Of a stretch of DNA of 64,000 nucleotides, positions 25,262 through 59,493 are shown piece after piece. Each line of letters starts with the position of its first letter. Within the stretch, counting starts at the first letter, position 1. Source of the DNA: Jiangella alkaliphila (GTDB lineage Bacteria > Actinomycetota > Actinomycetes > Jiangellales > Jiangellaceae); contig NZ_LT629791.1 in assembly GCF_900105925.1 (NCBI RefSeq), positions 3,693,278 to 3,757,277 on the forward strand, in the 5' to 3' direction. The notes beneath the pieces were generated by a model. It saw nothing but the letters and a program-made list of their open reading frames with translations, was not told the DNA's origin and did not search any database. The position numbers and the translations under genes were made by a program.

Positions 25262-26679
25262 CGGCCAGGACGTCGTCGAAGACCAAGCGGCTCCGGCGCG
25301 CAAGGAAGCGACTCGAGGTACGGCGAGATCGGCCGTCCGCCACCGTCGTCCCGTTGCGGGCTCGTGTCCTGCGGCAGCTGGAGATCTGGGGTGGCGCCGC
25401 CGTGCTCGCCGCCGGCGCCTACGTCGGCGCGGTGATCGCGGTGGAGGCGTTCCTCGACGACCGGGACGACGAGTCTCCGCTCGCCACCGCCGCGGAGGCG
25501 CTGGGCGACGGCAACGTCTACGTCGACTCCCGGGCCGAGGGCGTGGTCGACGAGGCCGGGCTCACCGCGTTGGAGGAGCGGGCGGCCGGCGCGAGTCAGC
25601 CCACGCGGGTACTGATCTGGCCGCTGGACGGCGGTTGGCCGGCCGACGTCGTCGAGCACATCGCGGCACGGTCGGACCTGGACAGCAGGTTCCTCCTGGT
25701 CGACGAGGAGGGGCGGACCGCGGTCGCGTCGACGCTCGACGAGTGGGAGCCGTCGATCGACGACACCGAGGGCATGCCGCCCGCCGACGCGGCGGCCCAG
25801 GCGCTCGAGGAGCTCGAGGCGACACCGTTGCAGGGGGAGCCCGAGGAGTACGACGAGGGCTCGCAGCCGTTCGGGTCGACCTGGCTCGCCGCCGCGCTGG
25901 GTGGCTTGCTGGGGGTGGCGATCATTCTCCTCGCGGTCAGCGGCGGGTTCGTGGCATTCGGCGTCCTCCTGCTCGCGGCGGCTCCCGGGTGGTTCGCCGT
26001 CGACGCCTACCGCCGTCGCCGGGCCGGCCCGGCGATCGCGAACATCGAGGCGCGGCCGGCGCGCCGCCGCGGTCCGAACCGGCTCGTCTACCGGCCTCCG
26101 AACGACGTCCTGGTCCGGCTCAACACCATCCGTGCCACCGAACGAGCCGAGCGCCTGCGCGATGAGTTGCTCGCCCTGGGGGAGCGGATGGCCGCGTCGA
26201 CCGACGACGCCACGGGAGCGGCCTGGGAGCAGGCTCTCGACTGCTATGCGACGGCGGGCCGCATCGCCGACCGCGTCGAGGGCGATACCGACCTCGCGAG
26301 CCACGCCGACGTCGTCGCCGGCCTGGTCCTGGTGGCGCGCGGGCGGCAGGCAGTTGACGCGGCCGAGTCCGGCAACGAGCCGGCGGAGTCGGCCGACTGC
26401 TTCGCGAACCCGTTCCACGGTCCGTCGGTCGGCGCCGTGCCGACGATCGCGCTCGGCGCCCAGCGGCCGCCGGCCTGGGTACCGCACCAGGTCGACGTCT
26501 GCTCGACGTGCCGTGCCGCGGCCGAGAAGGGGATCGCGGTCGCGGATCCTCTCGTGCTCGACTCCGGCGGCGGGCGCATGCAGGCGTACTGGATGCTCGA
26601 CGTGACGCCGTGGGCCCGGCTCGGTTACGGCGTCGCGACGCGTGAGTTGATCGACGCCTGGAGCCGCCCACGGGTCTGA
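25258..26679 (+). CDS. Membrane protein sharing the CFxNPxH / CxxC motif
   Basis: The 473-aa protein begins at an ATGA overlap. A basic N-terminus precedes one membrane segment at 40-60, then an extracytoplasmic region of about 150 acidic residues with a thiol-free alpha/beta pattern (TRVLIWPLDGGW). Two further segments lie near 205-250. The C-terminal 200 residues contain a helical domain and then D-C-F-A-N-P-F-H-G and V-D-V-C-S-T-C, the same candidate metal site as in the preceding protein. The topology places that site on the cytoplasmic side if the N-terminus is inside. The function is unknown; the pair could form a membrane complex. Confidence 0.7.
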   Translation: MTARTSSKTKRLRRARKRLEVRRDRPSATVVPLRARVLRQLEIWGGAAVLAAGAYVGAVIAVEAFLDDRDDESPLATAAEALGDGNVYVDSRAEGVVDEAGLTALEERAAGASQPTRVLIWPLDGGWPADVVEHIAARSDLDSRFLLVDEEGRTAVASTLDEWEPSIDDTEGMPPADAAAQALEELEATPLQGEPEEYDEGSQPFGSTWLAAALGGLLGVAIILLAVSGGFVAFGVLLLAAAPGWFAVDAYRRRRAGPAIANIEARPARRRGPNRLVYRPPNDVLVRLNTIRATERAERLRDELLALGERMAASTDDATGAAWEQALDCYATAGRIADRVEGDTDLASHADVVAGLVLVARGRQAVDAAESGNEPAESADCFANPFHGPSVGAVPTIALGAQRPPAWVPHQVDVCSTCRAAAEKGIAVADPLVLDSGGGRMQAYWMLDVTPWARLGYGVATRELIDAWSRPRV

Positions 26680-26723
26680 ACCCCGTCCCGTCGCTCGGCA
26701 TCTTCCCCCACTGAGCTAGCTGC

Positions 26724-26746
26724 TATAAGCTAGCTGATGTCTTACA
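26724..26746. promoter_or_regulatory. Probable GntR (NanR-like) operator upstream of nanA
   Basis: TATAAGCTAGCTG followed 3 bases later by TCTTA (26724-26744) matches the operator region in front of the gntR gene at 31947-31967 (opposite orientation) in 19 of 21 positions. It lies 17 bases before the nanA start codon, where it would block RNA polymerase. The left half-site (TATAAGCTAGC) is complete and the right half-site is degenerate. Confidence 0.65.
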
Positions 26747-26762
26747 TCCACTTGGGGAGACC

Positions 26763-27731
26763 ATGGCCGACATTCCTTCGGATCCGCCGGTGCGCCTGAC
26801 GGCGGCGCCGTTCACCGCGTTCGACCGCGAACGCTCCCTCGACCTGGACCGCATCGCCGGCCAAGTGGCAGGTCTTCGCGCTGATGGCGTCCACGCGGCC
26901 TTCGTCTGCGGCACCACCGGCGAGGGGGCGTCGCTGACCGAGGCGGAGCGCATGAGCGTGGCGCAGCGCTGGTGCGCGGAGGCAGGTCCGGGATTCGGCG
27001 TCGTGGTCCACGTGGGCCATGCGAGCCTGCGGGTGGCGACGGAGCTGGCTCGGCACGCCGCCTCGGTCGATGCGAACGCCGTCGCCGCCGTCGCGCCCTA
27101 CTTCCACCGGCCGCAGACGGTGGAGGAGTTGGTGGAGGCCTGCGCCGAGATCGCCGGGGCGGCCGGGTCGCTGCCGTTCTTCTTCTACCACCTGCCGGAC
27201 ATGACCGGTGTGCGCGTATCGATGGCGGAGTTCATCACGCTCGGCCGCAAGGAGATCCCGAACTTCGCCGGCGTGAAGTTCACCCACAACGATCTCGCCG
27301 AGCTCGGACAGTGCCTGCAGCTGGCCGGCGACGACCTGGAGATCATGGCCGGCCGCGACGAGATCCTGCTGTCCAGTCTCGCGGCGGGGGCGGTCTCGGC
27401 CGTCGGGAGCACGTACAACTTCGCCGCGCCCATCTATCTCGACATGGCGGATGCGTTCGCCGCCGGCGACCTCGCATCGGCGCGCCGGTTGCAGCAGGTC
27501 GCGCGGGGTGCGATCGACCTGGTCCATCCGTTCGGCGGTCTGCCGGCGCTCAAGGCGATCGCGTCGATGATCGGCGTCGACTGCGGGCCGTGCCGGCTCC
27601 CGCTGCGCGATCTCGACGAGGCTGCGCGGGCCGGCCTCCGGCGGGGGCTCGAGAGCATCGGCTTCCTCGAGACGCTCGAGCAGAGCCGAGCGCGCCGTGC
27701 CGTGGACGAGACTGCCGCTCGAGCGGTCTGA
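26763..27731 (+). CDS. nanA: N-acetylneuraminate lyase (DapA/NanA family)
   Basis: The 322-aa class I aldolase cleaves sialic acid to N-acetylmannosamine and pyruvate. It shows GTTGEG at 50-55, the YHLP tyrosine Y142 and the Schiff-base lysine K172 in GVKFTHND. The motif FAGVKFTHNDL and the LPALKAIASMIGVDCGPCRLPL stretch favour the lyase over dihydrodipicolinate synthase. GGGGAG precedes the ATG. It is the first gene after the candidate GntR operator, followed closely by the FAD oxidoreductase and sialidase. Whether the natural substrate is Neu5Ac or another nonulosonic acid is not known. Confidence 0.85.
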   Translation: MADIPSDPPVRLTAAPFTAFDRERSLDLDRIAGQVAGLRADGVHAAFVCGTTGEGASLTEAERMSVAQRWCAEAGPGFGVVVHVGHASLRVATELARHAASVDANAVAAVAPYFHRPQTVEELVEACAEIAGAAGSLPFFFYHLPDMTGVRVSMAEFITLGRKEIPNFAGVKFTHNDLAELGQCLQLAGDDLEIMAGRDEILLSSLAAGAVSAVGSTYNFAAPIYLDMADAFAAGDLASARRLQQVARGAIDLVHPFGGLPALKAIASMIGVDCGPCRLPLRDLDEAARAGLRRGLESIGFLETLEQSRARRAVDETAARAV

Positions 27732-27756
27732 TCAGCGGCTGGGCAGGGGAGCTGTC

Positions 27757-29968
27757 ATGCGGGAGCAGCAGGTCCGGCACGACGTGACCGTTGTGGGCGG
27801 CGGGCTGGCGGGCGTGTGCGCCGCCATCGCCGCCGCTCGCCTCGGGCGGTCGGTCGCGCTGGTCAACAACCGTCCGGTGCTGGGCGGGAACTCGTCCAGC
27901 GAGATCCGGGTGTGGGTGGTCGGCGCGACGGCGCATGGCCGCAAATCACCAGGCGCGCGAGACCGGGATCATGGGCGAGCTGTTCGTCGAGAACCAGTAC
28001 CGCAACCCCGAGGGCAACCCGTACTACTGGGACGCGGTCGTGCTCGACGCGGTGCGGGCCGAGCCGAACATCTCGCTGTATCTCAACACCGACGTGCGGT
28101 CGGTCGCCGCGTCCGACGGCCGCATCGAGTCGGTGACCGGCTGGACCATGGGGTCGGAGCTGCTGACGACGTTCACCGGGCCGGTCTTCCTCGACTGCAC
28201 CGGCGACGGCTTGGTCGGCTATCTCGCCGGTGCTGAGCATCGCATCGGTCACGAGGCCCGGTCGGAGTACGACGAGCCATGGGCGCCCGACGAGGCGAGT
28301 CGGCTGACCATGGGGAGTTCGCTCTTCTTCTACTCCAAGGACGCCGGCGAGCCGGTGCGGTTCGTCCCGCCGGACTTCACCAAGGACATCACCGCGACCA
28401 CGATCCCCGAACTGCGCACCATCCGCGCCGACGAGAGCGGCTGTGCCTACTGGTGGATCGAGTTCGGCGGCGAGCTGGACACCGTCCACGACAACGAGGC
28501 GATCCGCGACGAGCTGTGGGCCGTCGTCTACGGGATCTGGGACCACATCAAGAACTCCGGCGAATTCGTCGACGTCGACACCTTGACCCTGGAATGGGTG
28601 GGCGCGTTGCCGGGCAAGCGGGAGTCGCGCCGGCTCATCGGTGATCACGTGCTCACGCAGCACGACATCGTGAACCAGGCAGACTTCGACGATCGGGTGG
28701 CGTTCGGAGGATGGTCCATCGACCTTCATCCGCCCGGTGGCATGTACGCGTCGGCGAAGGCCTCACGGCACTTCATCGTCAACGGCGTGTACCACGTTCC
28801 GTACCGGGCGCTGTACTCGAGGAATGTCAGCAACCTGTTGATGGCGGGACGGAACGTCTCGGCGACCCACGTCGCGCTCGGCGGCGTGCGGGTGATGGCG
28901 ACGTGCGCCGTCATGGGCGAGGCCGCCGGGGCGGCGGCCGCCCTGTGCGCGGCGCAGGGCCTGCTGCCCGCGGCGTTGCCTGCCGGAGTGTTGCAGCGCA
29001 CCCTGCTGCGTGAGGACGCCTCCATCGTCGGGCTGCGCGACGAGGACCCCGGTGACCTGGGCCGCCGGGCTACGGCGACGGCTTCGGGCTCGCTGGGTGA
29101 GCTCGCCGTGGAGGATGCGGCGCGCACGTTCGGTCTGGCGGCCGACGCGGGACTCGTCGTCCCGGTCGATCCGGCGCTCACCTCGCTGGAGTTCCTCGTC
29201 GACGCCCGGCGCGACACCGAACTGGTGGTCGAGGTCTACGACCCGGGCCGCGGCCAGAACTACGTGCCGATCGACCTCATGGGCAAGGTGACGGCGGCGG
29301 TGGCGGCGGGGGAGCGGCAATGGGTCCGCCTCGAACCCGACTGGACGCCGGCGTCGCCACGCAACGCCTTCGTCGTCGTCAAGGCGAATCCGGAGCTGTC
29401 GCTGCACGTGGCAGAGCGGCCGACGCCGGGCGTGCTGTCGTTCAGCCGTCGGCGGTCGCGGCCGGAGGGCGATGCCGGACAGGTGGTCCGGGAGTGGACC
29501 GACCGTGGCCTCCTGCGGCGGACGTTCTGCTTCCGGGCCGGCGCGACCAGGGCGTTCGAACCCGCGAAGGCGGTCGACGGCTACCTGCGCCCTTTCGCCG
29601 GTCCGCACCTGTGGGTGTCGTCGCCGCTCGGTCCCGAGGCCCCGGCATGGCTGCAACTGACCTGGCAGGAGCCCGTCGTCGTCGGCCGGATCGAGGTCAT
29701 CGCCGACGACGACCCCAACGAGGATCTGATCAACCTGCACCGCCATCGCACGCCGTTCGACGTCCTGCCGACCCTGGTGCGCGACTACGTCGTCCAAGCG
29801 CGCGTCGAGGGGGCATGGCAGGACATCGCCGAGACGAGGGGGAACCACCGCCGGCGGATGAGCCACGTGCTCGACCATCCGGTCGAGACGAGCGCACTGC
29901 GGGTCCTGGTCACGGCGACCAATGGTGCCCCGGCCGCGCACCTGGTCGCCGTCCGCGCCTACGCCTGA
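27757..29968 (+). pseudogene. FAD-dependent oxidoreductase (FAD_oxidored family), frameshifted
   Basis: From ATG 27757 the frame encodes an FAD Rossmann motif (VTVVGGGLAGVCAAIAAARLG), then LGGNSSSEIRVWVVGATAHG. At about 27943 it runs out of frame. The family sequence continues in the next frame as NHQARETGIMGELFVENQ and reads open to 29968. One extra A in the run AAA at 27943-27945 accounts for this. The intended protein is about 735 aa. The N-terminal 430 residues are the FAD_oxidored core (LDCTGDG, GRNVSATHVALGGVRVM), followed by beta-sandwich domains of about 150 residues each. Its place between nanA and a sialidase suggests a redox step on a sialic acid or linked sugar. If the shift is real the gene is inactive. 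Confidence 0.8.
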
Positions 29969-30040
29969 CGCATGACGTTGTTCGGAGCGGGCCGGCTCGA
30001 GCCGCCCGCCATCCAGAGGTAGTCCAATGAAGGGAGACCC

Positions 30041-31933
30041 ATGGCCAGGCAGGGATCGACACGAAGGACGTTCCTCAAGGCGACGGCGGTCGCCGGGATC
30101 GGCGCCGCGAGCGGAATCTCCGCGTCGGTGCCGGGCATGCGCCCGGCGGCGGCCGGACCCCAGGTCGAGTACCTGACCGTGTTCGAGTCGTTGATGGACG
30201 GCTACCACACCTTCCGCATCCCGGCCGTCACCAAGGCGCCCGACGGCACGGTCCTGGCCTTCGCCGAGGGCCGCCGGCTCGCCGCCGCCGACTCCGGCGA
30301 CATCGACCTCGTCCTGCGTCGCTCGCTCGATGGTGGCCGGACCTGGGAGCCGCTGCAGGTGGTCGGCGACAACGGTCCGAACACGTTCGGGAACCCGGTC
30401 CCCCTGGTCGACCCCGCGTCGGGCGACATCGTCCTGCTGAGCACGCACAACGCAGGGCACGTCAACGCCGGGCAGATCCGGCGCGGCGAGGTCACCCCGG
30501 AGGAGTCCCGGCGCGTGTTCGTCCAGCGCAGCACCGACAGCGGCGCCACGTGGTCCGAGCCGGTGGAACTCACGTCGGAGGTGAAGCCGTCGCACTGGAA
30601 GTGGTACGCCACCGGCCCGGGCCACGGCATCGCGCTCCAGCACGGCCCGCACGCCGGGCGACTGGTCGCGCCCTGCAACCACAGCTTCCTCGTCGACGCC
30701 CTCTCGCGGGAGAACAGCCACGTCATCTACAGCGACGACGGCGGCCACACCTGGCAGCTCGGCGCCATCGCCACGCAGACCGGCGACGCGGTCGGGAACG
30801 AGAACTCCGCGGCCGAACTGAGCGACGGCACCGTCTACTTCAACGCGCGCAACTCCCACCTGCTCAATCCGGGCAACCGCATCGCGACGACCAGTAGCGA
30901 CGGTGGTGAGACGTTCGACGGGCCGTTCGTGCCCGTCCTCGACATCGTCACGGCACAGGTCCAGGGGTCGGTCCTCAGGCTGTCGCCCGAGGTCGACCGG
31001 AGAGAGCGCATCGTCTTCTCCGGGCCCGGGCACTTCATCGCCCGCGAGAGCCTCACCCTCCGGCACAGCGGCGATCGGGCCCAGACCTGGAGCGACGGCA
31101 ACGTCCTGTACGACGGCCCGGCCGGGTACTCCGACCTGGTCGAGCTCGGCAAGGACGACGGCCCGCCGCTGATCGGCGCGCTCTACGAGAACGGCGATCG
31201 GCTGGAAGAGATCGTCGGGTCCGGCCTGGCCTACCACCAGCGGATCACCTTCGCCAGGGTGCCGGTCGCCCGCCTCGATGTATCGAGTCCGCCTCCGTTC
31301 GTCACGCCCGACTCGTCCGGCCGGGGCAACCACGGCGTGGTGAGCGGAACGCCACTGAGAGGCCGCGGCGCCTTCGGCCGGGCCGTACAGTTCGCCGGCC
31401 ACTACGTCGAGTTCCCGATGAACGACGACCTCGCTCTGGCCGACAGTCCGTTCACGGTCGCGACGTGGTTCCGTACCGAGTACCGCGCGTTCAACCAGGC
31501 GCTGTTCTGGGCGCATTCCACGGCCACCGAGCGCGCGAAGTGGCGCATCGCGATCGAGGGCGGGCGCATCCGCGCGCTGCTCGACGACACGGTCACCGCG
31601 CGCTTCGTCAACGGCGAGGTCGACGTCACCGACGGCGCATGGCACCACCTGGCCCTGGTCCGCGACGCGCACGAGACCGTGCTCTACGTCGACGGAGTCC
31701 GCGCCGGCACCGCCGGCCCGGTCGCCGGGTCGGTGTCCCAAGACGCGCCGGGCGGCGTTCGCGTCGGCGCTCGCGTCGACGGGATCAACTGGCCGTTCGT
31801 GGGCGCCATGGACGAGATCTGGGTGATCCGGGAGGCGCTGACCGCGGATCGGATCGCCGCGCTCATGGCGTCGAACGAGGTAGCCGGCGGCGCGGTGGTC
31901 GCGCACCTGGCGTTGGACACCATGCGCCGCTGA
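30041..31933 (+). CDS. Tat-exported sialidase with LamG-type C-terminal domain
   Basis: The 630-aa protein has a Tat signal (TRRTFLKATAVAGI), and the ATG has GAAGGGAG upstream. The FRIPA motif (R59) and SGDIDLVLRRS start the six-bladed propeller, with Asp boxes SLDGGRTW, STDSGATW, SDDGGHTW and SSDGGETF. ENSAAELSDG and FNARN carry the glutamate and second arginine, and AGYSDLVEL carries the tyrosine. Residues 435-620 form a LamG/concanavalin-like fold (FGRAVQFAGHYVEFP, DGAWHHLALVRD) likely to bind carbohydrate. It removes terminal sialic acid outside the cell. It is a close paralogue of the sialidase at 51081. Confidence 0.93.
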   Translation: MARQGSTRRTFLKATAVAGIGAASGISASVPGMRPAAAGPQVEYLTVFESLMDGYHTFRIPAVTKAPDGTVLAFAEGRRLAAADSGDIDLVLRRSLDGGRTWEPLQVVGDNGPNTFGNPVPLVDPASGDIVLLSTHNAGHVNAGQIRRGEVTPEESRRVFVQRSTDSGATWSEPVELTSEVKPSHWKWYATGPGHGIALQHGPHAGRLVAPCNHSFLVDALSRENSHVIYSDDGGHTWQLGAIATQTGDAVGNENSAAELSDGTVYFNARNSHLLNPGNRIATTSSDGGETFDGPFVPVLDIVTAQVQGSVLRLSPEVDRRERIVFSGPGHFIARESLTLRHSGDRAQTWSDGNVLYDGPAGYSDLVELGKDDGPPLIGALYENGDRLEEIVGSGLAYHQRITFARVPVARLDVSSPPPFVTPDSSGRGNHGVVSGTPLRGRGAFGRAVQFAGHYVEFPMNDDLALADSPFTVATWFRTEYRAFNQALFWAHSTATERAKWRIAIEGGRIRALLDDTVTARFVNGEVDVTDGAWHHLALVRDAHETVLYVDGVRAGTAGPVAGSVSQDAPGGVRVGARVDGINWPFVGAMDEIWVIREALTADRIAALMASNEVAGGAVVAHLALDTMRR

Positions 31934-31936
31934 GGG

Positions 31937-31967
31937 TTGACATCTATAAGATAGCAGCTAGCTTATA
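31937..31967 (+). promoter_or_regulatory. Leaderless gntR promoter overlapped by a GntR operator
   Basis: TTGACA (31937-31942) and TAGCTT (31959-31964) are separated by 16 bases, and the start codon begins 6 bases after the -10 box, so the mRNA probably starts at the ATG. A near-perfect palindrome TATAAGATAGC-A-GCTAGCTTATA (31945-31967) has 10 of 11 arm pairs and covers the -10 region. No Shine-Dalgarno site precedes the ATG. The site is nearly the same as the one upstream of nanA. Confidence 0.72.
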
Positions 31968-31970
31968 TCC

Positions 31971-32678
31971 ATGAGTCACGGTGACACGTTCCGGCTGGCG
32001 CAGGAGAGGCTTCGCCAGTACATCGACGACCACGATCTCCGGCCCGGCGATCGGCTGCCCTCGGAGGCGCAGCTGGCCGAGAACCTCGGCATCAGCAGGA
32101 TCTCGCTGCGCGAGGCGACGAGGAGCCTGCAGTCACTGGGCGTCATCAACGCCGTCTCGGGCCGGGGACTGTTCGTCAGCGAGTTCTCGTTCCGTCCCAT
32201 CCTGGAGCAGTTGCCGTACGGGCTGGCGGTCGGAGGCGCGTCGCTGCACGAGGTCTTCGTCGTTCGCGAGGCCCTCGAGGAAGGCCTGGTCGAGATGGTC
32301 GCCAAGCGGCTGACCCCGGCCGACCTCGACGACCTGCAGGCGATCGTCGACCAGATGGCGCGCAAGGAGGAGGCCGGCGAGTCGCTCACCGAGACCGACA
32401 AGGCCTTCCACGCCCGGCTCTACCGTCCCCTCGACAACGCCCTGGTGTCGTCGCTGATCGACATGTTCTGGGAGCTGTTCAACCGCCTCTACAGCTCGCT
32501 TCCGGGTGAACGCGACCCGCACCCGGCGCGGGTGCACCAGGGCATCGTCGACGCGCTCCGGGCGGGTGAGGGGATGTCCGACGCCATGGTCAGCCACTTC
32601 AGCTACATCCGGCATCGGCTCGAGCCGCTCGGGTCGTCGCACAAGGAGGGAACCGGAGAGCCCGGTTCGCCTGAGTAA
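31971..32678 (+). CDS. GntR-family regulator, FadR subfamily (NanR-like)
   Basis: The 235-aa protein has a winged helix at residues 8-70 (LPSEAQLAENLGISRISLREATRSLQSLGVI) and an FCD ligand domain at 85-225 (FVVREALEEGLVEM...DKAFHARLYRPLDNALV). FadR-type proteins often bind metal and a carboxylated sugar acid and repress transport and catabolic genes. The operator over its own promoter and at nanA suggests it controls the lyase-sialidase-importer locus. The ATG is leaderless. It is a paralogue of the regulator at 59494. Confidence 0.9.
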   Translation: MSHGDTFRLAQERLRQYIDDHDLRPGDRLPSEAQLAENLGISRISLREATRSLQSLGVINAVSGRGLFVSEFSFRPILEQLPYGLAVGGASLHEVFVVREALEEGLVEMVAKRLTPADLDDLQAIVDQMARKEEAGESLTETDKAFHARLYRPLDNALVSSLIDMFWELFNRLYSSLPGERDPHPARVHQGIVDALRAGEGMSDAMVSHFSYIRHRLEPLGSSHKEGTGEPGSPE

Positions 32679-32704
32679 TCCCCTTCAGGCAGGAGACACA
32701 GGAC

Positions 32705-34282
32705 ATGGTCCAGCATCAACGACGATGGAGGATCCGCCGCTTGGCGGCGGCGACGGCCGTGGGCGTCATGGCCATGGCCGGCTGCTCGTCGATCGACGCG
32801 CCGGCGGACGACGACGCCGATGACACCGCCGCCGAAGGCGAACCGCAGACCGGTGGCACCCTCACGTACCTGCAGGCCGGCGACGTGACCACGTTCGACC
32901 CGGCCATGCTTCCGCAGGTCAACTACGCCATGCTTCCGCAGCTCTTCGACACGCTGGTCTCGCTCGACGCCGCGCTCGAACCACAGCCGGAGCTGGCGGA
33001 GTCGTGGGAGTTCAACGACGACCGCAGTCAGCTCACCCTGCGGCTGAGGGAGGGTGTGGTCTTCCACGACGGGACGCCCTTCACCGCGCAGAGCGTCGCC
33101 TTCACCCTGGACCACTATCGCGACCCCGAGGTCGGAGCACTCATCGGCCCGTTGCTGGCGGCCATCAGCGAGGTGGAGGTCGTCGACGACACGACCGTCG
33201 TCCTGCACTTCTCCGCGGAGCCGGTCAGCATCTTCGACGCACTGGACCTGATGTTCGTCATCCCCGAGGGCGACCGCGACCGGATCGCCACCGAGCCCAT
33301 CGGCACCGGGCCCTTCCAGCTCGAGAGCCGCCAGCCCGGGGTCGGCCTGACCCTGGTCCGCAACGAGGACTACTGGAAGGACGGCCTGCCGCACCTGGAC
33401 CAGATCGAGATCGTCGCGGCCCGCGACCAGCAGGCGGCGATCGTGCAGCTGGAGAGCGGCGCCGGGGACATCCTGCTCCGGCCGCAGTACAGCGACCTGG
33501 GCCGCCTCGACGACCAGGACGGCATCTCCACCCGCGTCCTCGACATCTCGCCCAACATGCTGTCGCTCCACGTCAACGTCGCCACCCCGGCGCTGGCCGA
33601 TGCGAGAGTCCGGAAGGCGATCTCGCTGGCCATCAACCGCGAGCGCATCGCCGAGACGGTCCTCGCCGGGACGGTCGAGCCGACCTGCCTCCCATGGAGC
33701 GAAGGCTCGCCCGCCTACAACCAGGAGCAGGTCCGCGACGCTTGTGCCTATGACCCGGCGGAGGCGGAGAGACTGCTCGCCGAGGCCGGATTCGACGGCA
33801 GCACCGAACTGTCGATCGTGGTGCAGAGCGGGGTCGAGCCCGCCTACGGCGCGGCGGCGGAGATCATCGCCGAGGATCTGCGGCAGATCGGGGTCACCGT
33901 CGCGATCGAACCCGAGGAAGAGGCGGAGGCCGCCCGGCGACTGGACGAGCGCGACTTCGACCTGTACTCGAAGGGCTACGGCCGGGCGAACCGCGATCCC
34001 GTGACCGCCCTGAGGTCCACGGCGGCCTGGCGGCCGGACGACGGCGTGACGAACTACGCCTCGCCGGAGTACACCGACCTCATCGACCAGGCCACCGCCG
34101 AGACCGATCCGGAAGCACGGCAAGAGATCTTCGAGCAGCTCAACCAGCTGATCCTCGACGAATCGTTCATGCTGACCATCACGTCGCTCCCGACCACGTT
34201 CGCGTACGCCGACCATGTCAGGGGACTGACCACCAACCTCGAAGGCATGCCCCTGCTCGACGAGGCATGGATCTCCGAGTAG
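32705..34282 (+). CDS. Substrate-binding lipoprotein, SBP family 5
   Basis: The 525-aa protein starts at ATG 32705, 26 bases after the gntR stop; CAGGAGA upstream. The lipobox AMAGC places the lipid cysteine at 27. The family 5 pattern includes TFDPAMLPQVNYAMLPQLFDTLV, LREGVVFHDGTPFTAQSV and IGTGPFQLES. The long acidic linker (DDDADDTAAEGE) follows the cysteine. It is the receptor for the Opp-type importer whose genes follow in order, and next to nanA and sialidase a sialic acid is a plausible ligand. Compared with the SBP at 16318 it has a different pocket region. Confidence 0.93.
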   Translation: MVQHQRRWRIRRLAAATAVGVMAMAGCSSIDAPADDDADDTAAEGEPQTGGTLTYLQAGDVTTFDPAMLPQVNYAMLPQLFDTLVSLDAALEPQPELAESWEFNDDRSQLTLRLREGVVFHDGTPFTAQSVAFTLDHYRDPEVGALIGPLLAAISEVEVVDDTTVVLHFSAEPVSIFDALDLMFVIPEGDRDRIATEPIGTGPFQLESRQPGVGLTLVRNEDYWKDGLPHLDQIEIVAARDQQAAIVQLESGAGDILLRPQYSDLGRLDDQDGISTRVLDISPNMLSLHVNVATPALADARVRKAISLAINRERIAETVLAGTVEPTCLPWSEGSPAYNQEQVRDACAYDPAEAERLLAEAGFDGSTELSIVVQSGVEPAYGAAAEIIAEDLRQIGVTVAIEPEEEAEAARRLDERDFDLYSKGYGRANRDPVTALRSTAAWRPDDGVTNYASPEYTDLIDQATAETDPEARQEIFEQLNQLILDESFMLTITSLPTTFAYADHVRGLTTNLEGMPLLDEAWISE

Positions 34283-34285
34283 CCG

Positions 34286-35251
34286 ATGTCGATGACCCGT
34301 TACGTGGCCGGTCGCCTGGCACAGATCGTGCTCCTGGCGTTTCTGGCGTCACTGCTGATCTTCATGTTCAGCCGTGCGCTGCCGGGCGACCCCGCCACGC
34401 TCTACGCCGGTCCGGACGCCAGCCCCGAGACCGTCGCGGCGGTGCGGGCGTCGTTCGGCCTGGACGAACCGATCTTCGTCCAGTACTGGCGCTGGCTGAC
34501 CGAAGCGCTCCAAGGCAACTTCGGCCAGTCCTACAACAGCCGGCTGCCGGTGTCCGAACTGGTGGCCGGGGCGCTGCCGGCGACACTCCAGCTTGCCGCC
34601 GCCAGTCTCGTCCTCGCCTTGATGATCGGCCTGCCGACCGGCGTGATCTCGGCCCTGAAGCCCGGCTCGAAGGCGGACTACGCGATCACGACCTACAACG
34701 GACTGGCGCTGAGCATCCCGGGTTTCTGGCTGGCGATCCTGCTGATCATCCTGTTCGCGTTGGTCCTGGGCCTCCTGCCGGCCGGCGGACGCGTCAGCAT
34801 CTTCGACGATCCGGCTGGAGCGCTGCGCACCATCGCCCTGCCCGCGGTGGTGCTCGCGTTCCGGCTGTCCGCGGTGCTGTCCCGCTTCACTCGGACAGTG
34901 GTGCTGGAGGCCCTGAACGACGACCACGTGCTCACCGCCACCGCGAAGGGGCTCAGCCGCCGGGCGGTGCTGACCAAGCACGTGCTTCGTAACGCGGTCG
35001 TTCCGCTGATCACCATCATCGCCGTCGAGGTCGCCGAACTGTTGAACGGCGCGGTGATCCTCGAGGCGCTGTTCGGCTGGCCGGGCATGGGGTGGTTGTC
35101 GGTGCAGGCGGTGCAGACGCGCGACTACCTGCTGCTCCAGGCGATTCTGCTGGTGTTCGTGCTGGTGACGCTGGTCCTGAACCTCCTTGCCGACGTCGCC
35201 CAGGCCCGGCTGGATCCACGGGTGCGGACCAGACGGGGGGCGCTGCGGTGA
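34286..35251 (+). CDS. ABC transporter permease, DppB/OppB type
   Basis: The 321-aa protein starts 3 bases after the SBP stop. It has the N-terminal RYVAGRLAQIVLLAFLASLLIFMFSRALPGDPA, six membrane segments, and the cytoplasmic loop TRTVVLEALNDDHVLTATAKG that couples to the ATPase. The C-terminus is LARPRVR-type basic. The next permease starts at a GTGA overlap. It is part of the five-gene importer 32705-38197. Confidence 0.94.
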   Translation: MSMTRYVAGRLAQIVLLAFLASLLIFMFSRALPGDPATLYAGPDASPETVAAVRASFGLDEPIFVQYWRWLTEALQGNFGQSYNSRLPVSELVAGALPATLQLAAASLVLALMIGLPTGVISALKPGSKADYAITTYNGLALSIPGFWLAILLIILFALVLGLLPAGGRVSIFDDPAGALRTIALPAVVLAFRLSAVLSRFTRTVVLEALNDDHVLTATAKGLSRRAVLTKHVLRNAVVPLITIIAVEVAELLNGAVILEALFGWPGMGWLSVQAVQTRDYLLLQAILLVFVLVTLVLNLLADVAQARLDPRVRTRRGALR

Positions 35252-36156
35252 GCGCGGCAGTGACGCCCGAGCCGGGCGTGAAGGCGGCCGTCACCCCGAT
35301 GCGCGGCGGCTACTGGCGGCAGAGCCTGCGCCAGTTGCGCCGGCACCGGCAGGGTCAGATCGGCGCCGTCCTGGTGCTGCTCATCGTGATCCCGACGATC
35401 ATCGCGCCGTGGATCGCGCCGTACGACCCACTGGCGCAGCACGCCGGTTCCGAACTGCTGCCTCCGGGTGGGCAGTTCCTCCTCGGCACCGACGAGTTCG
35501 GTCGCGACCTGCTCAGCCGGGTGATCTACGGGGGCCGCGCGTCACTCGTCGTCGGCCTGTTCGCCGTGTCGATCGCCCTGGTCGCCGGGGTGCTGCTCGG
35601 CATGTTCGCGGCGTACCGCGGCGGCGTGATCGACACCGTCCTCAGCCGGTCGTTCGATGTGCTGCAGGCCTTTCCCGGCGTCCTGATCGCGATCTCGATC
35701 GTGGCGCTGCGGGGTCCGGGCGTCGAGAACGTCGCTCTGGCTCTCGGCATCGGCTTCGCGCCGGTCTTCGCGCGACTGGCCCGGGCCGGCACGCTGTCGG
35801 CCCGGAACGCCGATTTCGTCGAGGCGGCGATCTCGATGGGCGCGGGGACCGGGCGGGTGCTCCGGCACATGTTCCCCAACATCTTCGCGCCCATCCTCGC
35901 GCAGGCGGGCATGCTCGTCGCGGCTGCGATCCTGGCCGAGGCCGGGCTGTCGTTCCTGGGGCTGGGGTCGCAGCCGCCGGATCCGTCGTGGGGCCAGATG
36001 CTGAGCGTCGCCCAGGGCTATCTGCGCGTCGCCCCGTGGTACGCCGTGTTCCCTGGTCTGGCCCTGACGATCCTGCTGATCGGGATGACCTTCCTGGTGG
36101 ATGCCCTTCGGGACGTGCTCGACCCCAAGTCCGAGCTCCGAAGGAGCGTCACATGA
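35248..36156 (+). CDS. ABC transporter permease, DppC/OppC type
   Basis: The 302-aa protein starts at GTG 35248 inside the previous stop. Residues 40-62 form the first membrane helix ([22 protein letters not shown]). The [20 protein letters not shown] and [22 protein letters not shown] stretches are diagnostic of the DppC subfamily. [13 protein letters not shown] is the coupling loop. The next start overlaps the stop in an ATGA. Confidence 0.95.
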
Positions 36157-37157
36157 CCGATCCGGTGCTGCGTGTGCGCGAGCTCGGCGTGCGGTTCGGC
36201 GTCGACGGACCGGCCGCCGTCGACGGGCTGTCCTACGACGTCCACCCGGGCGAGACCCTCGGCATCGTCGGGGAGTCCGGGTCGGGCAAGACGATGGCGC
36301 TGCGGGCACTGCTGCGACTGTCGCCGCCCAACGCGGTGGTCACGGGGCGCGTGCTGTTCGGCGACCGGGACCTGTTGCAGGAACCCGAGTCGGCGATGGC
36401 CGCGGTGCGGGGCCGGACGATCGCCATGGTCTTCCAGGACCCGACCACGTACTTCAACCCCGTCCTCACCGTCGGAGCCCAGGTCGCCGAGGCGGTCCGC
36501 GCGCACCATCGGCGGACATCGCGCAAGGCCGCCCGGCAACGGGCCGTCGACCTGCTCAGGCGGGTGGGGATACCGGCCGCCGAACACCGGTGCGACCAGT
36601 TCCCGCACGAGTACTCCGGAGGTATGCGGCAGCGCGCGATGATCGCGATGGCGATCGCCAACGAGCCGGAGATCCTGCTGGCCGACGAGCCGACGACCGC
36701 GCTCGACGTGACCGTGCAGGCGCAGATCCTCGACCTACTGCGGGTCGCCCAGGAAGAGACCGGCGCGGCGACGGTCCTGGTCACCCACGACCTCGGCGTC
36801 ATCGCCGAGATCGCCGACCGGGTGCTCGTCATGTACGCCGGGCGTGCGGTCGAGGAGGCGCCGGTTCGGTCGATCTTCGACTCTCCGGGGCACCCGTACA
36901 CCGCGGCGTTGCTGGCGAGCCGGCCGATCCTGGGCGACACGCTGAAACGGCTGCGGCCGATCCCGGGCGTCATCCCGGCCATCGGCGAGTTGCCGCCGGG
37001 CTGCGCCTTCAACCCCCGGTGCGACCTGGGCCGCGACGACGACCGCTGCCGCACGGTCCGGCCGGACCTTCGCACGGTCGTCGACGGGCACTCGTCGGCC
37101 TGTCATCACGCGGAGAAGCTGCTCGACATCATGACGACCTCGGGAGAACGCGCATGA
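36153..37157 (+). CDS. ABC transporter ATPase, DppD/OppD type
   Basis: The 334-aa cytoplasmic ATPase has the Walker A motif GESGSGKT (40-47), Walker [12 protein letters not shown] and the signature YSGGMRQR. The C-terminal [16 protein letters not shown] cysteine cluster is typical of the oligopeptide family. It starts at an ATGA overlap and is followed the same way by its partner. Confidence 0.95.
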
Positions 37158-38197
37158 CGGCCACATCGCTGGATGACGGCGCGGCGGTCGCCGGCGTCGC
37201 GGACGGCGACGAGGCCGTCCTCGAGGTGGACGGCCTCGTCAAGCACTTCTCGACGGGCGGCGACTTCCTCGGGCGGCACCGGTCGACCGTCCACGCCGTC
37301 GACGGCGTCAGCTTCTCGATCCGCCGCGGCGAGACGCTGGGACTGGTCGGGGAGTCCGGGTGCGGCAAGTCGACGGTGAGCCGGCTCGTGCTCGGCCTGA
37401 TGAAGCCGACCAGGGGTTCGATCCGGTTCCACGGGCAGGAGATCACGAACCTGCGGCCGCGTCGGCTGCGGCCCGTCCGGCGTGACATGCGGCTGGTGTT
37501 CCAGGACCCGTACGCCTCGCTGAACCCGCGGATGACGGTCGGCGACATCGTCGGCGAGCCGTTCCGCATCCATGGCCGCGGACGGGAGGTCGCGCGGGAG
37601 GTGCCGCGGCTGCTCGAGCTGGTCGGTCTGCGCCCGGAGCATGCCGGACGGTTCCCGCACCAGTTCTCCGGCGGGCAGCGCCAGCGCATCGGCATCGCCC
37701 GGGCGCTGGCGCTGGACCCCTCGCTTCTGGTGCTGGACGAGCCGGTGTCCGCGCTCGACGTGTCCGTCCAGGCCCAGGTGATCAACCTGCTCCAGGACCT
37801 CCAGCAGGAGTTCGGTTTCGCCGTGCTGTTCATCGCCCACGACCTTGCGCTCGTGCGGCACATCTCGGCGCGCGTCGCGGTGATGTACCTCGGGACCGTC
37901 GTCGAAGAGGGCACGGGCGAGGAGATCTACGAGCGGCCCACACACCCGTACACCCAGGCGCTGCTGTCCGCCGTGCCGATCGACCATCCGGACCAGCGTG
38001 GACGAGGCCGTCTGCTGCTGGCCGGCGACCCGCCGAGCCCGCTGGACCCGCCGTCCGGATGCCGCTTCCGGACGAGGTGCTGGAAGGCCCAGCACACCTG
38101 TGCAGATGAGGAGCCCATGCTGATCGAGCGTCCTGCCGACCCCCATCGGAGTGCATGTCACTTCGCCGCCCTCGATCCGGGCGACGGTGCCAGGTGA
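37154..38197 (+). CDS. ABC transporter ATPase, DppF/OppF type
   Basis: The 347-aa protein has the Walker A motif GESGCGKS (66-73), signature FSGGQRQR and Walker [12 protein letters not shown]. Its C-terminal [14 protein letters not shown] cluster is present, unlike the shorter homologue at 18784. It completes the importer. The sulfatase start overlaps its stop, so the sulfatase is translated with the transporter. Confidence 0.95.
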
Positions 38198-39675
38198 GCA
38201 CCGGCGAACGGCCGAACATCCTCTGGTTGTGTGCGGATCAACAGCGGTTCGACACCCTCGGCGTCTACGGGAACCCGTACGTCGAGACCCCCAACCTCGA
38301 CCGGCTGGCCACCGAAGGCGTGATGTTCGACCACGCCTACGTGCAGAGCCCCGTCTGCACGCCGTCGCGAGCGAGCTTCCTCACCGGCCGCTATCCGCGC
38401 ACCACCCGTGCCCGGCAGAACGGTCAGTCGATCCCGCCGGACGAACGCCTCGTCCCGCGCATCCTGGCCGATGCCGGCTACACGTGCGGCCTGGTGGGAA
38501 AGCTGCACCTCAGTGCCGCCCATCCGCGGCCGCACCGTCCCGTGGAACCACGCATCGACGACGGCTACAGCTGGTTCAGCTGGTCGCACCAGCCGCCGCC
38601 GAACGCGGTGCAGGCCGCGATGGACTGGCCCACCAACTCCTACACCAACTGGCTGCGCGCCCGCGGTGTCGAGTTCGAGCGCGAGACACACCCGGACACT
38701 GACGAGGTCCAGATCGGCGTCGCGGAGGAGCACCAGCACACGACGTGGTGCGCCGACACCGCCTCCGATTTCGTCGAGACCATGGCCGGCTTCACTCAGC
38801 CGTGGCTGCTGTCGGTCAACTTCTACGACCCGCATCATCCGTTCGACCCGCCGAAGGAACTGCTCGACCGGTACATCGAGCTGCTCGACGACATCCCGCT
38901 GCCGAACTATGTGCCGGGGGAGCTCGACACCAAGCCCGAGTTCCAGCGGTGGCACCACGAAGGCACCTACCAGGGCGCACGAACTATCGCCTATCCCGAC
39001 CGGACCGATCGGGAGCACCGGGTGATGCGCGCCGCCTACTGGGCGATGATCGACCTGCTCGACCGCCAGGTCGGCCGCATCCTCGACACCCTGGAGCGCA
39101 CCGGACAGCGCGCGAACACCATCGTCGTCTTCCACGCCGACCACGGTGAGCTGCTGGGTGACCATGGGCTCTACCTCAAGGGGCCGCACTTCTACGACCC
39201 GGCGGTCCGGGTGCCGCTGATCCTCAACTGGCCGGCCGGGCTTCCGTCCGGGCGGCGGGTCGGTTCCCTCGTCGAGCTCGTCGACCTCGCGCCGACCCTC
39301 CTCGACGCGGTGCGCGCCGAGCCGGAGCCGGGGATGCAGGGTCGCTCGCTCTGGCCCTTGATCAACGGATCGATCGCCGACGCGGAGCATCGCGACGACG
39401 TCTACGCGGAGTCGTACAACGCCGGCGGGGACCACAACGGGGAACGGGCCTACGTGACCATGGTTCGTACGGCCGAACACAAGGCCGTCGTCGTGCACGG
39501 GCATCCCGGCGACGTCGACGGCGAGTTGTACGACCTGATCGACGACCCGGGGGAGAACGTCAACCGCTGGGACGACCCCGCCTACGTCGATGTCAAGGTG
39601 CGGATGCTCCGGCGCATGGTCGACCGGATGGCCATGACCGTCGACCCGCTCCCTGAACGAGACGACGTCTGGTAG
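38194..39675 (+). CDS. Sulfatase (formylglycine type)
   Basis: The 493-aa protein starts at a GTG overlapping the stop of the ATPase gene. The motif C55-T-P-S-R is the site at which the cysteine is converted to formylglycine, and [17 protein letters not shown] is the consensus. [12 protein letters not shown] near the N-terminus supplies metal-binding aspartates, and [18 protein letters not shown] is a second active-site block. There is no signal peptide, so it may act on imported sulfated sugars in the cytoplasm. The maturase needed to make formylglycine is not in the window. Its coupling to an importer next to a sialidase suggests a sulfated oligosaccharide as substrate. Confidence 0.93.
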
Positions 39676-45421: not shown

Positions 45422-46183
45422 ATGCGAAGCGCGGCACTAGGGATGGAGAACGCGTCGGCCCTGGCCCGAGGGCTGCACGTGCTCCGGTTGCTCGTGGACG
45501 AGGGTTCGCCGATGACGGCGACCGAGATCGCCCGGCGGATCGGCGTCCACCAGAGCTCGGTGTCCCGGATCCTCGCGACACTGATTCACGTCGGGTACGT
45601 CCGCAAGACGCCGGACCGGCGGTTCGCCCCCGACTTCGGGGTGCTCTCCCTTGCCTCCGCGACCACCTGGTTCCCGCTGATTCGCAAGCCAAGGGCCGCG
45701 ATGGAGGAGATCGCCGCCGCACACCCAGAGGTCGAAGCCACGCTCTGCATGCTCTGGCGTGGCGAGATGATCTACTTCCTGCGTACCCGTCACCAGGCCG
45801 GCGCGATCGATTTCGGCATGGGCTTTCCCGTCCACCTCTCCGCCCCCGGGCTGCGGATGCTCATCGATCTGCCCGAGGACCACGCCCTGGAGGTCCTTCG
45901 GCAGTCGCGCAGCCGTTATGGCTGGTCGGGCACCGAGGTGGTGCCGGAGACGGCGGAGGAAGTCCTCGCCTGGGCACAGGCACACGTGGAGCACGACGTC
46001 CTCGTCCTGGCGGAGTGGAGATCCATGGGCCACGTCGGCGCGGCGATCCCGATCAAGACCGACGAGGACCACCCGGTGGCCCTCGCACTGACCGGCGACC
46101 TCAGTGCCGCCGATCCGGCCACCCTTCGGCTGTGGCTGCACGATGCCCGCCGCATCGTCGAATCCGCCCTCGCCGAGCGCTGA
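45422..46183 (+). CDS. IclR-family transcriptional regulator
   Basis: The 253-aa protein starts at ATG 45422, probably leaderless. Residues 12-70 form the IclR winged helix (MTATEIARRIGVHQSSVSRILATLIHVGYV). The C-terminal half is the IclR effector domain, with the pattern EATLCMLWRGEMIYFLR and APGLRMLIDLPE. Such regulators repress or activate sugar-degradation genes and bind small acids or sugars. It heads the operon with the sugar importer, sialidase, esterase, beta-galactosidase and sulfatase, and lies divergent from alpha-galactosidase, so it may control both. Confidence 0.92.
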   Translation: MRSAALGMENASALARGLHVLRLLVDEGSPMTATEIARRIGVHQSSVSRILATLIHVGYVRKTPDRRFAPDFGVLSLASATTWFPLIRKPRAAMEEIAAAHPEVEATLCMLWRGEMIYFLRTRHQAGAIDFGMGFPVHLSAPGLRMLIDLPEDHALEVLRQSRSRYGWSGTEVVPETAEEVLAWAQAHVEHDVLVLAEWRSMGHVGAAIPIKTDEDHPVALALTGDLSAADPATLRLWLHDARRIVESALAER

Positions 46184-46829
46184 AGGCCACAGCACCACCG
46201 ACCCCGACCCTTCCCGCCCGCACATCACGTCTCGCAAAGGAGCCCGATGTGACCACGTCGTCTTTCTCCCGGCGTACCGCCCTGAAGGCGGCCGCCGGTG
46301 TCGCCGGTGCCGCGTTCCTCGCCGCTTGCGGCAACGGAAGCAACTCCACCGGAGGCGGCGGAGGCGGCTCAGGCGGTGGAACCCTCAACGTCTGGGGCGG
46401 CGTCCCGCCCGAGACCGGCCCCGACGATCTGATCGCGGCGTTCCACAAGGAGCACCCCGACATCCAGGTCATCTACACGCGTTACGTCAACGACGACGAG
46501 GGCAAACTCAAGCTCGACACGTCGTTGCAGGGCGGGGTTCCGATCGACGTGTTCTACACGTATGACACCCCGACCCTCACCAAGCGGGTCGACGCGGGCC
46601 TCACCGCCGACCTCACCGACAAGATCTCCAACGACTCCGATCTCGCACAGTTCGGCCCGGACGAGTCGCCCGCGACGAACGTCGTCTTCGGCGGCAAGGT
46701 CCATTCCATCCCAGCGCAGAAGTCGCCGACGATCGTCTACGTCAACGACAGCATGCTCTCCGAAGCGGGCATCACCATCCCCGACGACTGGGACATCAAC
46801 GACTACCACGAGGTGGCGCGGGAGCTAAG

Positions 46830-46844
46830 CCTCGATCCACCGAC
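46830..46844. repeat. Left terminal inverted repeat of the IS
   Basis: CCTCGATCCACCGAC matches the complement of the right end at all 15 positions. The match then decays to partial pairing. The flanking 5-base duplication CTAAG lies immediately before it. Confidence 0.9.
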
Positions 46845-46964
46845 CAGCTTGGTGACGTCGTCTGGTTTCAGGCGAGGTGGTTGTGATCACGTTGGGTGTG
46901 AGTGAGTTGCCGGTCTGCCCGGCTTTCCACTGGGGTTCCTTCTCGTGCCGGCGGGGGCTGGTGG

Positions 46965-48371
46965 TCAGGTGTGTGTCGTGGCGGGCCGGGGGAAGAGGGC
47001 GTTGTAGAGCGTGGACCACGCGGTCTGCCAGGGCCAGTTGGTCGGCAGGTGCAGGGTCAGACGCCGGGCGGAGGTGGCGATCCGGGCGGGGACGGTGATG
47101 AGTTTGCGGCGGATCGTCGCGGTGGTCGCCCTGGTCAGAGTGGGGGTCTTGGTCAGGGTCGCGGCGGCGCGGGTGAGGTTGAACGCCATGACCGCGCAGA
47201 CGAGCCAGGCCGCGTTGGCGTTGAACACCCCGGAGGGCAGGTGGGCCAGCGCGGAGGCCTTGAGGTCGGCGTGGACGTTCTCGATGACCGCGTGGGCCCG
47301 GTGGGTCTGGTCCGCGGCGACGGTGTCCATCTCGGTGGTGTCGGTGGTGGTGAAGAAGGCGTGGAAGCGCCAGGAATCGAACAACGTGTCCTGGCCTTCG
47401 CTGTTGCGGGGGTTGAGATCGGGGATACGGCGGACCACGAGCCGGCCGGGGATCTGGTCGGTCTTGTTCTTGGAGGTGAACGCGGTGAAGGGAACCTCGG
47501 CGACCTCGGCACGAGAGTTCCATGTTCTGGTGGTCTCGTCGTAGACGGCGTCGGTGTATTTGATCGTGGTCCAGGCGGTCTCGGCGATGCCGGCGATGGC
47601 GCGTTTGACCGCCGGGTCCATCCGCACGGTGATCGAGACGTTCGCGCCGGCCTTCAACGCTGCGGTGACCAGGGCGTGGGAGTAGAACGCCGAGTCCGCC
47701 CGGACCAGCACGTCTCGGCCGGCCAGGTGGGTGCGGCGGATCAGGGCGAGGGCGTCGGTGGCCAGACGCGTCGCCCCGCGTGGGGACCCGGCCGAGCCGT
47801 TGCGCAGGCGCTGGGCGGCGATCACCGGCGCGAAGGTCTGGCTGGAAACGGTGGCCAGCACGGCGTTCAGGCCCCGCACCCCGGAGTACCCGAACCCCGC
47901 GCCCTGCTTCTGATAGCCGTGTACCTCCACGATGGTGTCGTCGATGTCGACCATCACCGTCGCGGTGTCTGCGGTCTCGCCCAGCAGGGCCGTGCGCTGG
48001 GTCAGGTTGATCAGAAACCGAGAGGCGATCGCGTCGGCTTGGCGGACATGGCCGAAGGTGAAGGCGCGCAGGAACGAGCCAAGTGTGGAGGGGGCGTAGA
48101 TGCCGGCGAAGACCTTCCCCATCGCGCCGTGGCGTAGCAGGGCCATGTCGTCGATGCTGTCCGCGCCGGCGGTCATGCCGGCGACCAGGCCCGACAGCTT
48201 CAGCCCGGCGTTGGCGCCCTTGTCCGTCGGCACGCTCAGGTGCTCATCGCCCAGCTCGCGCAGCCGTGCCTCGCCGGCCAGGGCCATCGCCGGGACCAGG
48301 CCCGCCGACGACACGAGGTTGGGCTCATCGAAGGCCGCCGAGACGACCGGTCGGGTGTGAGAGAGTTGCAT
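46965..48371 (-). CDS. IS1380-family transposase
   Basis: The 468-aa protein covers most of the element. Candidate DDE acidic residues are in VMVDIDDTIVEVHG, VLVRADSAFYS and HAVIENVHADLK, and the family-typical GFGYSGVRGLNAVLAT follows the first block. It should catalyse cut-and-paste movement of the element. The reading frame is uninterrupted. It is transcribed against the host gene. Other copies may exist elsewhere in the genome and could have served as the source. Confidence 0.95.
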   Translation of the reverse strand: MQLSHTRPVVSAAFDEPNLVSSAGLVPAMALAGEARLRELGDEHLSVPTDKGANAGLKLSGLVAGMTAGADSIDDMALLRHGAMGKVFAGIYAPSTLGSFLRAFTFGHVRQADAIASRFLINLTQRTALLGETADTATVMVDIDDTIVEVHGYQKQGAGFGYSGVRGLNAVLATVSSQTFAPVIAAQRLRNGSAGSPRGATRLATDALALIRRTHLAGRDVLVRADSAFYSHALVTAALKAGANVSITVRMDPAVKRAIAGIAETAWTTIKYTDAVYDETTRTWNSRAEVAEVPFTAFTSKNKTDQIPGRLVVRRIPDLNPRNSEGQDTLFDSWRFHAFFTTTDTTEMDTVAADQTHRAHAVIENVHADLKASALAHLPSGVFNANAAWLVCAVMAFNLTRAAATLTKTPTLTRATTATIRRKLITVPARIATSARRLTLHLPTNWPWQTAWSTLYNALFPRPATTHT

Positions 48372-48479
48372 CTACGAGATGCCCTTCTTGAGCTGGCGAT
48401 ACGTGCCTTAGACAAGTCGTATCCTCCCAGCTCAGAAGCGCATTCTCACGCTCCCACGCCCTACCACGACACTCCACCT

Positions 48480-48494
48480 GTCGGTGGATCGAGG
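48480..48494. repeat. Right terminal inverted repeat of the IS
   Basis: GTCGGTGGATCGAGG is the exact complement of the left end. The second copy of CTAAG follows at 48495-48499, after which the interrupted reading frame resumes. Confidence 0.9.
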
Positions 48495-59390: not shown

Positions 59391-59407
59391 ATGACTTGAA
59401 AAGTCAT
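59391..59407. promoter_or_regulatory. 17-bp palindrome between divergent BNR and gntR genes
   Basis: ATGACTTGAAAAGTCAT is a perfect 7-3-7 palindrome, AT-rich and located 38 bases before the start of the BNR gene. It is a likely operator for the FadR-type regulator. It does not resemble the operator of the other GntR protein at 31945. Confidence 0.6.
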
Positions 59408-59430
59408 CTGAGCAATAGCTGAAATAGGAG

Positions 59431-59479
59431 TTGATTCATCTGATCTGTTGCTCTAGTCTTCCGTTGTCTCATCAGATGA
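59431..59479 (+). promoter_or_regulatory. gntR promoter with flanking 9-bp inverted repeat
   Basis: TTGATT (59431-59436) and TAGTCT (59454-59459) are 17 bases apart. TCATCTGAT (59436-59444) and ATCAGATGA (59471-59479) are exact complements on either side of the -10 box. GAAGG (59482-59486) lies 7 bases before the start, so the mRNA has a normal leader. Confidence 0.5.
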
Positions 59480-59493
59480 TCGAAGGTCGGCCC

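Follow-up and report, generated by a model that had tools for sequence, protein, structure and literature searches.

Predicted operators of a GntR/FCD regulator at the nanA-like and gntR genes of a Jiangella alkaliphila sialidase cluster

What is the role of two near-identical DNA sites that precede a nanA-like gene and a gntR gene in Jiangella alkaliphila, and which protein recognizes them? The sites lie in a stretch of 64,000 nucleotides (nt) with a G+C content of 70% (positions 3,693,278 to 3,757,277 of contig NZ_LT629791.1), which is called the window below. It is part of a genome that consists of a single contig of 7,716,500 bases (7.7 Mb). Comparison with related loci makes it quite probable, on sequence grounds, that both sites are operators of the neighbouring GntR/FCD protein and serve to switch genes off.

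The two sites and their recurrence beside GntR relatives

The predicted operator at nanA (26724..26746, plus strand) is composed of TATAA, GCTAGC, T, GATGTC and TTACA, and leaves 16 nt between its end and the nanA start codon. Its counterpart at gntR (31945..31967, plus strand) is composed of TATAA, GATAGC, A, GCTAGC and TTATA, and is separated from the gntR start codon by 3 nt. As noted in the preliminary description of this DNA, the two agree at 19 of 21 positions (20 of 23 in the longer comparison) when one of them is reversed. The 13-mer TATAAGCTAGCTG is matched exactly at 26724-26736 (+) and 31967-31955 (-), and with up to two mismatches it has three matches in the window, where 0.03 were expected. 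The opposite orientation of the pair means little for the gntR copy, which is identical to its reverse complement at 20 of 23 positions. Motif scans found weaker overlapping matches beside the nanA operator, at 26710 and 26717, and an additional copy of AGCTAGCTG (26714..26722, +), 14 bp upstream of the copy within the nanA operator, is a possible auxiliary half-site.

Chance identity at this length had been called very unlikely for DNA of 70% G+C, a judgement that did not survive comparison with shuffled sequence. When the 8-kb region 26000-34000 was shuffled six times with a second-order Markov model, self-overlapping palindromes being counted, at least one pair at 19/21 was found in four of the shuffles; the real stretch holds the pair described here and one such palindrome near 26011. 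The 19/21 identity alone is thus indecisive, and it is conservation that decides. In the whole-genome search that had been suggested as a check, the strict pattern TATAAGNTAGCNGNTNNCTTA occurs at 0 mismatches at the nanA and gntR sites only, a result that gives no support to a widespread repeat. With three mismatches allowed, three further matches were the nanA site on the other strand and two places elsewhere, which we regard as noise because the reversed-pattern control also gave three; with up to two mismatches the control gave none in this genome. A tRNA remnant just upstream of the nanA site, suggested by a resemblance to minus-strand tRNA arms seen by eye, was discarded: ARAGORN and Rfam found nothing there, and elsewhere in the genome this stretch is not strongly matched (best E value of any further copy 0.32).

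One scan of genome contigs yielded ten loci with a GntR relative. The closest orthologues, 77% identical, are those of Nonomuraea turkmeniaca (locus L007) and a Streptosporangium (L008), and nearly the same palindrome stands 4 nt before gntR in both, with different flanking bases. These sites match the consensus at 22 of 23 (Nonomuraea) and 23 of 23 (Streptosporangium) positions, the Streptosporangium copy, TATAAGCTAGCTGCTAGCTTATA, being a perfect palindrome except at its centre. Copies were also seen in Phytoactinopolyspora (genome G018), a member of the same family, Jiangellaceae. One precedes a GntR gene (59% identical) that is followed by a DHDPS-family gene, and the other lies upstream of a divergently oriented sialidase gene, behind which come genes for solute-binding proteins and, by eye, permeases; this case rests on the position of the site and on the paired copies. 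A relaxed pattern, widened after the Phytoactinopolyspora copies had been seen, was run over the whole Nonomuraea and Streptosporangium genomes, and its only matches with 0 or 1 mismatch were the gntR sites, exact in Streptosporangium and with one mismatch in Nonomuraea.

More distant GntR relatives (43-52% identity) have a related site built on GATATC. The 16-mer probe TATCAGATATCTGATA with up to four mismatches had 26 matches in 316,731 bases (20 loci) against one in 950,193 bases of a first-order control, counts in which L009 overlaps L052, L010 overlaps L054 and shifted registers are scored separately. Across 18 relatives' loci (287,453 bases) the 23-mer TRTMAGMTAKCWGMTAKCTKAYA matched 27 times at 18 or more of its 23 positions; these matches mark 17 separate places, and a second-order control of 1,437,265 bases had none. 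As the two probes derive from these very loci, the enrichment is partly circular. Circularity does not affect where the sites stand: upstream of gntR, nanA, sialidase or solute-binding-protein genes, or in the intergenic region beside such a gene. Taking longer stretches, removing duplicates and excluding L016 (26% identical) as well as regulators of the GntR2 type, a site of at least 18/23 was present near such genes at 15 of 19 GntR loci, namely the window, L007, L008, two in L019 (the second weak), L011, L012, L013, L015, L052 (site in L110), L053, L055, L056, L058 and L060. Among three reference regulators, only GntR relatives accompany the site-bearing loci. These results support the proposal of a NanR-like regulon whose operator differs from (GGTATA)n, as the site goes with the GntR clade before gntR, nanA, sialidase and solute-binding-protein genes of other genera, and a GGTATA repeat is contained neither in the two sites nor in the relatives' aligned sites.

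When 18 aligned sites were read together with their reverse complements (36 readings), A5, A9, C11, G13, T15 and T19 were invariant, and G6, T8, A16 and C18 deviated in one or two readings; the sites had been chosen by score, which favours invariant columns. The operator core is AGNTANC-W-GNTANCT, with C at the centre of 2 of the 18 sites, and the half-sites are mostly GCTAGC, GATAGC or GATATC.

The regulator, its promoter and a proposed mode of repression

The proposed repressor of both operators is a FadR/FCD-type GntR regulator (31971..32678, +), assigned by Pfam, alignment and a structure model. It matches PF00392 (GntR helix-turn-helix, 60.3 bits) and PF07729 (FCD, 75.6 bits) above cut-off, and falls below the NCBIfam NanR model NF003011 (80.8 bits against a cut-off of 260). 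Its metal-binding residues D143, H147, H189 and H209 are invariant in seven aligned sequences including Escherichia coli NanR. The AlphaFold model, derived from 10 sequences, had a mean predicted local distance difference test score (pLDDT) of 76.6 and a predicted template modelling score (pTM) of 0.57. In comparisons with this model E. coli NanR (6on4) took Foldseek rank 3 (VIA Z 15.0, root-mean-square deviation 7.1, 206 residues). Since 6az6 was the top structural match (Z 17.0) and other FadR-type regulators score similarly, the fold does not single out NanR.

Upstream of gntR we recognized by eye a succession of TTGACA (candidate -35 element, 31937..31942, +), 16 nt, TAGCTT (candidate -10 element inside the gntR operator, 31959-31964, +), 6 nt and the start codon. 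The arrangement TTGNNN-N16/17-TAGCTT-6/7 nt-start codon is common to the gntR promoters of the window, L007, L008 and L019, and TTGAC stands directly upstream of the site also at L011-L014, L053, L056 and L058. TAGCTT deviates from TATAAT. This layout fits a leaderless promoter in which the right half of the operator supplies the -10 element, and steric autorepression is likely because operator and promoter overlap. The genes downstream of gntR are co-directional and closely spaced, so that autorepression would extend to the transporter genes.

In the mechanism that we propose, the GntR/FCD protein would bind the dyad AGNTANC-W-GNTANCT, presumably as a dimer. At gntR the dyad fills the space between the promoter elements and overlaps them. 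The bound protein would thus block RNA polymerase, the two excluding each other, and gntR would be repressed along with the transporter and sulfatase genes that follow it in the same direction. The less symmetric copy at nanA would control this gene and the two downstream of it, for the oxidoreductase and the sialidase. Either sialic acid or a downstream amino-sugar phosphate, as a product of sialoglycan breakdown, may bind in the metal-containing FCD pocket and release the protein from DNA.

Alternative readings and opposing observations

Could the resemblance of the two sites be fortuitous, reflecting the composition of two A+T-rich promoters? The shuffled sequences speak for this, as does the behaviour of loose patterns, whose matches stay at control level. 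It nevertheless seems highly improbable, because the strict pattern is unique in the genome and the site is conserved at gntR, nanA and sialidase promoters of other genera in which the flanks differ. A true operator might still belong to another regulator, above all to the IclR-family protein encoded at 45422-46183. In Nonomuraea and Streptosporangium an IclR relative is indeed divergent from gntR, with the site between both genes. Such a relative (E 1e-8) is present in only 2 of 21 loci, however; the other 19 lack it and many of them carry sites beside a GntR relative, and no comparable match was found near the window's own iclR. Recognition by a regulator other than GntR thus appears improbable.

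A more serious alternative accepts GntR as the binding protein, is identical to our explanation except for the ligand, and takes the signal to be a phosphorylated amino sugar or another acidic sugar, which would make this a broader sialoglycan or nonulosonate regulon. The NanR of Corynebacterium glutamicum, which can be cited for this option, is reportedly released by N-acetylglucosamine 6-phosphate and N-acetylmannosamine 6-phosphate. The pocket of the window protein argues on both sides. E. coli NanR, with which it shares the GntR and FCD domains (6on4, 6wfq; PMC8012715), has the residues Asp172, His176, His222, His244, Arg128 and Arg203 where the window regulator has D143, H147, H189, H209, R99 and R172. 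Of the NanR residues that contact N-acetylneuraminic acid (Neu5Ac; PMC8012715), Arg128, Asp172, His176, Arg203 and His244 are kept, but Asn165, His214, Asn215, Ser218 and Gln221 are replaced. As several Neu5Ac contacts are not kept, the inducer may be something other than free sialic acid. Retention of the metal ligands and of both carboxylate-binding arginines, and the NanA-like and sialidase neighbours, point back to sialic acid. We regard a different ligand as quite possible, if somewhat short of an even chance.

A number of observations weigh against the assignment of the two sites to the GntR/FCD protein as its operators. The nanA copy is poorly symmetric (14 of 23 positions against its own reverse complement). 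The automatic sigma-70 scan reported no promoter in the nanA or gntR region, which is why the -10 element was assigned by eye; of the earlier statement that the gntR copy is a near-perfect palindrome over the -10 box, the palindrome is confirmed and the box depends on this visual assignment. The site was absent from all 11 other genomes of the genus in a pattern scan, and none of these 11 encodes a GntR relative of more than 50% identity. Since both are missing in the genus and present in Nonomuraea and Streptosporangium, this patchy spread may reflect horizontal transfer of the cluster. At two mismatches the Nonomuraea genome has one more matching place, and the reversed control gave 5 and 1 matches in the two genomes, for which reason only the gntR matches are counted there. 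A scan of 22 genomes of the family at two mismatches gave two real matches beyond our own genome against five for the reversed control; both are in the Phytoactinopolyspora genome, and one of them (contig C12, L020) has no related genes beside it. L014, L051, L054 and L057 have no site of 18/23, although for L054 and L057 the head of the operon may lie outside the stretch taken. The only NanE-family match of the genome is at 783 kb, 2.9 Mb from the window.

In a class-wide scan with the relaxed 23-mer at two mismatches, 4 of 393 genomes matched, our own included, and the reversed-pattern control gave 0 throughout. The other three matches, which likewise tell against the assignment, are beside unrelated genes: by eye a Fic-like gene (G022), an acetyltransferase/proS-like region (G149) and a polyketide-type region (G355), all without relatives of the reference genes. 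They were judged to be chance or unrelated. The scan is blind to the relatives' sites, because these score 18-20 of 23, below its threshold. The G022 match (L097, G022:C10:185775-185797) is a near-perfect GATAGC/GTTATC-type dyad upstream of the Fic-like gene, in a 3-kb stretch without nan genes.

Gene cluster and comparison with known systems

The nanA-like gene (26763..27731, +) encodes a lyase of the DHDPS superfamily (Pfam DHDPS, 2.8e-47). Its best solved match is the N-acetylneuraminate lyase 5afd (4.7e-56), and all of its first 20 solved matches bear that name, many of them being versions of one protein. In an alignment with E. coli NanA, Tyr142 and Lys172, which we take to be the catalytic residues of N-acetylneuraminate lyase, are invariant. 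The protein is below the NCBIfam cut-offs for NanA equivalogs (143.5 against 281 bits for NF003164, 123.9 against 382 for TIGR00683). It is followed by a gene for an oxidoreductase dependent on flavin adenine dinucleotide (27757..29968, +), in which PF12831 is matched on the downstream frame only. The reading frame changes near 27935, with the Rossmann motif in one frame and the remainder in another, which points to a disrupted gene or to a sequencing error. The next gene (30041..31933, +) encodes a sialidase (BNR_2) with a LamG-like domain and, by eye, an export signal; its best solved match is 1eur (E 1.2e-37). Behind gntR follow co-directional genes for a family-5 solute-binding protein (by Pfam) and for Dpp/Opp-like ATP-binding cassette permeases and ATPases (by eye; 32705..38197, +), related sets of which occur at the relatives' loci, and the run ends with a sulfatase gene (38155..39675, +; Pfam).

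Within about 30 kb (30041-59407) there are four BNR_2 sialidase-type genes by Pfam and a fifth by eye, together with sulfatase genes, genes for a GH36 galactosidase and a GDSL hydrolase and, by eye, a LacZ-like gene, so that the region looks like a degradation island for sialylated, sulfated glycans. At 46824-48500 a DDE transposase (PF13701) between 38-nt imperfect inverted repeats interrupts a gene for a sugar-type solute-binding protein. The two parts of that gene (one within 46015-46905, the other within 48240-49253) each match PF01547, the latter falling slightly short of the cut-off.

A second GntR/FCD regulator, GntR2 (59494-60150), is 46% identical to the first and divergent from a sialidase-like gene. 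In this region (59400-60153) no site of the window type lies upstream of GntR2; in its place there are TCATCTGAT/TCATCAGA-like repeats, common to the relatives of the same genus L028 and L029. Further nan-like regions with NanA relatives (35-47%) are near 6.44-6.48, 6.08 and 1.61 Mb. The first two (L101-L103) also contain sialidases and GntR relatives, 36-41% identical to one of the window's two, and another GntR relative is at 1.64 Mb. Five stretches from these other nan-like regions of the genome had no site of at least 18/23, one place reaching 17.

Judging by the title of Egan et al. 2015, the Bifidobacterium NanR is reportedly of the GntR type. The C. glutamicum NanR, Cg2936, is likewise reported (Uhde et al. 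2016) to be an actinobacterial GntR repressor of nan/nag genes, with an operator reportedly of the form GATGTC-W-KATGTM plus flanks. The layout of two hexamers and 7 bp would be the same, and the nanA site of the window has one GATGTC half; the prevailing half-sites of the window type are unlike that motif. The motif in this form was found in none of the 393 genomes of the class, which says nothing about C. glutamicum itself.

Repressors of nan genes of the GntR kind are already known in actinobacteria (PMC4746261, PMC8861201), the Bifidobacterium NanR being an N-acetylneuraminate-responsive example (PMC4746261). In the survey of Li and Huang (PMC8754123), 226 of the 234 nan clusters from Actinomycetia included a fadR gene, for regulators of the FadR/COG2186 type, and none of 17 Jiangellales genomes had the nanA/K/E set; its main text never uses the word operator. 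E. coli NanR, 24% identical to the window protein, which lacks most of the NanR N-terminal extension, binds (GGTATA)3 repeats (PMC8012715). In E. coli, too, nanA adjoins the regulator gene (nanR from K-12).

Arg59 of E. coli NanR, a proposed and likely base contact, corresponds to Ala33 in the window protein, and an Arg at this position occurs in none of 37 aligned relatives (query included). The GntR operators described by Suvorova et al. 2015 (PMC4494728) are A/T-rich palindromes, which the window sites resemble; many have an additional, weaker half-site at a distance of 7-12 nt from the centre. The FadR-type consensus core GT-N2/3-AC, favoured by such an Arg (PMC4494728), is absent from the window sites, the aligned consensus of the 18 sites being TANC-W-GNTA; the core is not universal, as NanR and BioR depart from it. 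The correlation between loss of the Arg in helix 2 and the missing GT/AC core is suggestive. A tentative and rather doubtful extension would be that an actinobacterial FadR-type branch lost both, came to read AGNTANC-W-GNTANCT, and underwent half-site drift between GATATC and GCTAGC, with several clusters per genome being separately regulated. The idea of separate regulators comes from the five stretches without a site. If it is true, half-site drift and different upstream motifs of paralogues would enable a single genome to operate several sialidase/lyase clusters under separate regulators.

A literature search for ATCAGATATCTGAT, AGCTAGCTGCTA and TGATGTC with NanR, which covered few subscription papers, gave no report of such an operator. 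The kind of regulator is thus known, and the predicted operator motif appears to be without an earlier report in the literature searched. Sialic-acid use in free-living actinomycetes has been little explored (PMC8754123). The sites described here would provide a concrete operator motif for the regulators of sialidase/lyase clusters in actinomycetes, free-living ones included, and would make the drift of operators between related GntR repressors tractable, within a general picture of nan regulation that stays unchanged.

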